Source: Bradyrhizobium liaoningense
Lineage (GTDB): Bacteria > Pseudomonadota > Alphaproteobacteria > Rhizobiales > Xanthobacteraceae
Assembly (NCBI RefSeq): GCF_018130955.1
Contig: NZ_JAFCJM010000034.1
Location: forward strand, 1-64,000
Length of the DNA stretch: 64,000 bases
Direction of reading: 5' to 3'
Notes under the pieces: model-generated
The model's input: the letters and a program-made list of their open reading frames with translations, nothing else
Told to the model about the DNA's origin: nothing
The model's database searches: none
Translations under genes and position numbers: made by a program
In this document: positions 50,278 through 50,340 of the stretch, one piece after another
Position numbering within the stretch: position 1 is the first letter of the stretch
Layout of the letters: each line of letters opens with the position of its first letter

Positions 50278-50340
50278 TAGAACCACTCTAAGCATCGCCT
50301 GTCTATCAGGTAAAGTTGACTTTAGTGATCGCTGCGATAG
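50278..50340. promoter_or_regulatory. katG/oxyR control region
   Basis: The intergenic region holds TAGAACCACTCTA (50278-50290), an ICE-like sequence also found before irr, and a pair of ATCG-N-GATAG-type half sites (ATCGCCTGTCTATC at 50294-50307 and ATCGCTGCGATAG at 50328-50340) that fit a LysR/OxyR operator. TTGACT (50316) and TAGGAT (50338), 16 apart, could be the oxyR promoter. All are inferred from sequence only. Confidence 0.45.

Follow-up and report, generated by a model that had tools for sequence, protein, structure and literature searches.

An ICE-like dyad stands in the gap between the divergent katG and oxyR genes of Bradyrhizobium liaoningense, and a second one stands upstream of irr; both are probably operators (ICEs) of the haem-regulated protein Irr, which would act as an antirepressor at irr and as a repressor at katG. 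The two dyads lie within the stretch of 64,000 nucleotides analysed here, hereafter the window, and share the 13-mer TAGAACCACTCTA. The irr half of this finding is known: the available portion of a review already describes Irr as an antirepressor of irr in B. japonicum, and the autoregulation that a sequence-only reading of the window had suggested is to that extent published (PMC5599777). The coupling of katG to haem is the new prediction, and a good one; with it, katG becomes a plausible, predicted new member of the Irr regulon.

The katG-oxyR gap and its flanking genes contain the following features:

48075-50234, minus strand: katG, catalase-peroxidase HPI (NCBIfam NF011635 and TIGR00198, above cut-off)
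50276-50292, no strand assigned: ICE-like dyad GGTAGAACCACTCTAAG, containing the 13-mer at 50278-50290 (weight-matrix score 11.03)
50285-50290, minus strand: predicted katG -10 hexamer TAGAGT, by reading, overlapping the right half of the dyad
50305-50343, no strand assigned: predicted OxyR-type operator, highly conserved in most of its columns, which overlaps the oxyR promoter (assignment to OxyR presumptive)
50308-50313, minus strand: candidate katG -35 TTACCT, weak, by reading
50316-50343, plus strand: sigma-70-like oxyR promoter TTGACT-N16-TAGGAT, from a consensus promoter scan
50350-51288, plus strand: oxyR-like LysR regulator (best NCBIfam match OxyR, below the curated cut-off)

Between the first copy of the 13-mer and the two ATG codons there are 43 nt on the katG side and 59 nt on the oxyR side. 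The consensus scan that found the oxyR promoter reported neither a katG nor an irr promoter. Only 6 bases separate the predicted oxyR -10 from the ATG, and the oxyR transcript may therefore have almost no leader.

The second dyad and the genes related to it are arranged as follows:

58739-59260, minus strand: fabA, divergent neighbour of irr (NCBIfam, above cut-off)
59487-59503, no strand assigned: ICE-like dyad ATTAGAACCACTCTAGT upstream of irr, containing the 13-mer at 59489-59501 (weight-matrix score 13.06)
59499-59521, no strand assigned: nearly invariant element CTAGTTGCGAGAAACTTGCATCT, from conservation, overlapping the right end of the irr dyad
59514-59542, plus strand: predicted irr promoter TTGCAT-N17-TATATT, by reading
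59586-60077, plus strand: irr, haem-regulated Fur-family regulator (NCBIfam IrrA and Irr, above cut-off)
26083-26538, plus strand: Fur/Mur-type regulator (below the Fur curated cut-offs)

Here the 13-mer lies between fabA and irr, 84 nt upstream of the irr ATG; fabB is also above its NCBIfam cut-off in the window. The Irr protein carries GCPWHD (by reading), which we take to be the haem regulatory motif. The Fur/Mur-type regulator at 26083-26538 is the expected repressor of irr; its gene is about 24 kb from katG and about 33 kb from irr. By hand count, katG and irr are at most 12 kb apart in 25 of 41 family genomes, the window's own included; they are on different contigs in 10 and far apart on one contig in 6.

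The identity of the two 13-mers, as claimed in the sequence-only reading, is exact: a search of the window places both on the plus strand at 50278 and 59489, and dinucleotide-shuffled versions of the window contain the word 0.00 times on average (100 shuffles). On either strand of the whole genome (8,288,982 bases in 158 contigs) there are two copies only, both in the gaps beside katG and irr. In the corresponding loci of 80 relatives, about 1.56 Mb, there are 46 exact copies of the word, of which 29 lie at katG, 17 at irr and 0 elsewhere. We nevertheless reject exact identity as evidence, as the two words are identical in just 3 of the 71 relatives that have both sites; the identity is incidental, and what is conserved is an ICE-like dyad at each place.

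The ICE, or Irr box, is a dyad of the TTTAGAA-N3-TTCTAAA type, with the 17-base form TTTAGAANNNTTCTAAA. Each copy of the 13-mer has one mismatch to the core TAGAANNNTTCTA, and each site has four mismatches (by reading) to the 17-base consensus. The near-match that had been claimed is thus real, and in the window the core with at most one mismatch is found 2 times versus 0.13 expected. Genome-wide there is no enrichment, with 41 such cores versus 89 for a reversed control pattern. One repeated word, TGGAAGTCTTCTA, accounts for nine of the 41; the 7 of its copies that can be placed relative to contig ends all lie within 50 bases of an end. Since one-mismatch cores are this common, resemblance to the ICE is by itself weak evidence, and we therefore built a weight matrix.

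Eight ICE-like sites found elsewhere in this genome went into the matrix: at mbfA, at bfr, near bfr, near ccmA, at sufB and three before a Fiu-like receptor gene; these putative sites were picked from sequence by their match to the consensus near iron and haem genes. The three before the Fiu-like siderophore receptor gene stand in tandem (locus L007, about 1501-1570; G000:C93:159127). Among the 63,984 positions of the window, the irr dyad ranks 2nd (13.06) and the katG dyad 4th (11.03). Both score below the weakest training site, sufB, when that site is left out (13.3), so their affinity may be low. In a background of 1,524,764 positions from relatives, 34 reach the katG score and 15 the irr score, which corresponds to an expectation of 0.0026 katG-level scores per 115 bp and 0.0032 irr-level scores per 325 bp.

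The 80 relatives were chosen as the closest by Irr and are nearly all Bradyrhizobium; 71 also contain katG and oxyR, which in the other 9 are absent from the stretch taken. Five loci (L075, L079, L080, L089 and L090) hold a more distant katG/oxyR pair in opposite orientation, with a poorly aligned gap, and are still counted in the tallies over 71 relatives and in the 72-sequence alignment used below. The katG dyad is within the top 3 matrix sites of its locus in 60 of 71 relatives, and first in 38; it falls below rank 3 in the other 11, among them L011 and L012, which by Irr are the closest relatives of all. For irr, the dyad takes first place in 56 of the 80 loci. The pattern TAGAA-N4-TCTA is present at katG in 46/71 relatives, at irr in 59/71 (61/80 when all loci are taken) and at both in 45/71. 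That both words are functionless chance matches, as the 41 genome-wide cores, fewer than in the reversed control, might suggest, is very hard to believe given this recurrence at both places and the lack of any exact copy elsewhere in the 80 loci.

At irr, the right half of the dyad and the following CTAGTTGCGAGAAACTTGCATCT hardly vary across 81 sequences, whereas the third base of the spacer is unconstrained. The predicted irr promoter begins inside this element, which is probably the Mur/Fur site of the irr promoter; the Fur footprint at irr is reported to fall on the TGCATC repeats. Outer lineages often have TTCTAG as the right half of the irr site, which is kept in several, and their left half decays. 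Among the irr upstream regions taken from 40 of 149 family genomes, 6 have an ICE score of at least 16, at varied places. Two family members, G080 (L181) and G011 (L175), have strong ICEs about 27 and about 33 nt before the estimated irr start, a position that would suggest repression and not antirepression. In the window, the dyad lies upstream of the -35, which fits a helper or antirepressor role. Near the consensus and conserved in relatives, the irr site is a predicted Irr operator whose role is known in B. japonicum, where, according to the part of the review available to us, Irr antirepresses irr and a Fur homologue represses irr with manganese (Hohle and O'Brian 2010, in PMC5599777).

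The katG site is harder to read, as the right half of its dyad is, on the minus strand, the predicted -10 box TAGAGT. A -10 box is recognised by its invariant second and sixth hexamer positions, and in the 72 aligned sequences the sole invariant positions of the word are exactly these, T50289 and A50285 (72/72 each); the T that an ICE wants at 50286 is present in 1/72. The left half TAGAA (67, 51, 62, 65 and 64 of 72) shows no stronger conservation than the flank CCAGG (67, 62, 63, 61 and 65), and it is absent in the two closest relatives. Together with the abundance of one-mismatch cores, these observations favour an explanation in which the katG word is a core promoter only, a -10 and start point with a chance likeness to the ICE, and of the two sites only the one at irr is an Irr operator. 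On Bradyrhizobium alone, the katG site may be a core promoter and nothing more. The grounds first given for Irr at katG are likewise insufficient, because near-matches to the ICE are common and the predicted katG -10 takes up half of the word. As a separate candidate, the conserved OxyR-type box was considered for the 13-mer and ruled out, since that box is distinct, more conserved and located at 50305-50343.

What argues against a bare core promoter comes from katG promoters beyond the genus. Of 149 family genomes searched for KatG, 111 gave a match; upstream regions were taken from 40 of the 110 other matching genomes (20 genera), and then from 20 more. They were anchored on the OxyR-type box, ending ACCTGAT or a variant, with a pattern written from the same 40 sequences. 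Relative to this anchor, ICE-like sites with scores of at least 6 occur at +27 to +29 (g1, g27, g43, g45), +17 (g20, g26, g28, g40), +15 (g34), -16 (g25, g40), +33 (g9), +10 (g12) and -26 (g40). Matches to ATTRGACCTNATCYAA at +5 (g10, g12, g18, g27, g38) were set aside as the OxyR-type box itself. The dyad of the window lies at +29, one base more than in its relatives. The commonest offsets, -16, +17 and about +28 (L106-L145), are spaced by roughly three helical turns and one. A core promoter with a chance resemblance does not account for ICE-like dyads that recur near the OxyR-type box at other offsets (+15, +17, -16).

In the stretch from +9 to +45, 9 of 20 genera have an ICE score of at least 9, compared with 0.49 for permuted matrices (p 0.0013, 1500 permutations), and 11 of the 20 have no such score there; the genera share ancestry, and their counts are not independent events. 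The other three stretches, -45 to +4, +46 to +82 and +83 to +119, have no excess (2, 0 and 1 of 20 genera). The split into four stretches followed a whole-region test that was not significant against permuted matrices (p 0.068, 1000 permutations), and the stretch +9 to +45 was selected after the offsets had been viewed; against dinucleotide shuffles, the best scores in the whole anchored region are 7.67 versus 2.95 (sd 0.65). Among the 20 further family regions, the 12 with an anchor again have a high mean score in +9 to +45 (p 0.0007), and 2 of the 12 reach 9 versus 0.19 expected (p 0.027), one of them from a genus represented in the first set. Across the full 400 bp of these 20 regions, the mean does not reach significance (p 0.075), and 6/20 reach 11 versus 1.69 (p 0.041). 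Permuted matrices seldom reproduce the pattern, which also speaks against a core promoter alone.

In the order, 41 of 61 genomes have a KatG match, and the scan covered the upstream regions of all 39 that lie outside the genus, one match per genome. Over 400 bp the mean score is raised (p 0.029, n=39). The count of regions scoring at least 11 is not significant (12/39 versus 6.53, p 0.077), and those at the higher cut-offs are 10/39 versus 3.22 at 13 (p 0.029), 8/39 versus 1.57 at 15 (p 0.008) and 8/39 versus 1.02 at 16 (p 0.0015), the last cut-off having been picked after looking. None of the 6 order regions with an anchor reaches 9 in +9 to +45 (mean, p 0.18). The best order sites, TTTAGAATAATTCTAAA and ATTAGAACTATTCTAAA, are centred about 47 bp upstream of katG in G206 and G159, two genomes of one genus in another family. 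Each of these genomes contains only two perfect 15-base TTAGAANNNTTCTAA, one of which is the katG site, and such perfect ICEs before katG in another family are a further point against a chance likeness. The katG promoters of G206 (L221) and G159 (L224) have no OxyR-type box matched by the anchor pattern, and a swap of the katG regulator in their family is possible. In G160, of another family, GTAGAACCATTCTAAC lies at +28 from a box that the pattern missed and that was picked by eye. Irr itself is present in 149/149 family genomes and in 10/10 order genomes checked. Taken together, the comparison of katG promoters in family and order, with some of its tests not significant, favours a predicted Irr-type operator; on this evidence a katG site that is core promoter only is unlikely, although it is the strongest of the alternatives.

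We also considered other proteins as ligands of the katG dyad, namely a Fur protein of the PerR type or one of the LysR regulators OxyR and LsrB. Per boxes resemble the ICE, and the katG dyad can be written as TTAG-N7-CTAA, which we take to be near an OxyR element. LsrB binds the katG-oxyR gap of A. tumefaciens, according to the part of the source available to us (PMC11975290). Several observations make such a regulator improbable in place of Irr. The genome has four Fur-type proteins (PF01475), a Fur/Mur type, Irr, a second Irr and Zur, and no PerR-type regulator was found among these four matches, whose best models are Fur, Irr, Irr and Zur, with the Fur and Zur assignments below curated cut-offs. 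Across six genomes there are 19 Fur-type matches, 11 of them classified, with best models Fur, Irr or Zur and none PerR; the Irr proteins of L251 and of the window also match PerRB, far below its cut-off. The katG-oxyR gap contains a separate conserved OxyR-type box, and G206 and G159 combine perfect ICEs with no pattern-matched OxyR-type box. LsrB is a minor candidate for the second input.

With Irr as the preferred ligand at both sites, the mechanism would run as follows. At irr, by the known mechanism, Irr would occupy the dyad immediately before the Mur/Fur site and the -35 and lift the repression that Mur/Fur exerts on irr. The katG dyad lies across the predicted -10 and the start point, a placement that fits a repressor. 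When haem is scarce, stable Irr would sit on the katG dyad and keep katG low; when haem rises, or when peroxide triggers the breakdown of Irr, Irr would leave katG, and the promoter could then fire, activated from the adjacent OxyR-type box. The logic follows from what is described for Irr elsewhere: in the portions of the sources available, Irr is broken down with haem and upon exposure to H2O2, and it acts as a repressor of mbfA and bfr (PMC4902296, PMC7762939), and we propose by analogy that katG is low at low haem and free with haem or peroxide. We infer Irr binding at katG, the direction of repression and the haem and peroxide logic alike. More tentatively, and with the balance somewhat against it, katG could be under direct control by Irr in a large part of the order, with haem gating and a second, OxyR-independent peroxide response.

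If Irr does act on katG, the making of KatG, a haem enzyme, would be coupled to haem supply, which Irr reports, and the promoter would gain an extra peroxide input, since Irr is lost on H2O2. Panek and O'Brian are said to have found in 2004 that KatG activity in B. japonicum is not lowered without OxyR; Irr on katG would, if true, be a testable reason for this retained activity.

Published surveys touch on katG in several ways. In B. japonicum, katG (blr0778) is induced by H2O2 in micro-oxic and not in oxic cells, as described in the accessible part of PMC3420878, a pattern that neither supports nor excludes Irr at katG. As far as the main texts were available, a re-analysis of a B. japonicum low-iron array leaves katG unmentioned (PMC10226988), as does a start-site map for katG or blr0778 (PMC4842269); in Brucella, DAP-seq gives seven Irr peaks, and catalase is unmentioned in the available text (PMC10374146). 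Among the literature matches listed, none was seen to name katG as an Irr target, and an earlier mention in the primary Irr papers is possible.

The closest known system is the Irr/ICE pair of B. japonicum, which has the same regulator (IrrA model) and the same dyad type in the same genus, with irr autoregulation known. As opposed to those ICEs, the sites described here have C for T in one half and score below mbfA and bfr. The Irr-repressed mbfA and bfr genes share with katG an Irr operator at the promoter, which at katG is predicted, and are derepressed by iron or H2O2, according to the available part of PMC4902296; they differ in having perfect 17-base ICEs in this genome, whereas katG also has an OxyR-type box. 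In R. sphaeroides, catalase expression and peroxide resistance go up when Irr is lost, as would be expected here, but the effect on katE is held to be indirect, with no box and no Irr binding at katE in the portion of the study available (PMC3413700). The bidirectional katG-oxyR promoter of Agrobacterium, as presented in the accessible part of PMC11975290, is similar in being a divergent pair with two inputs on one gap; there the second input is LsrB, whereas in the Bradyrhizobium gap it is predicted to be Irr.
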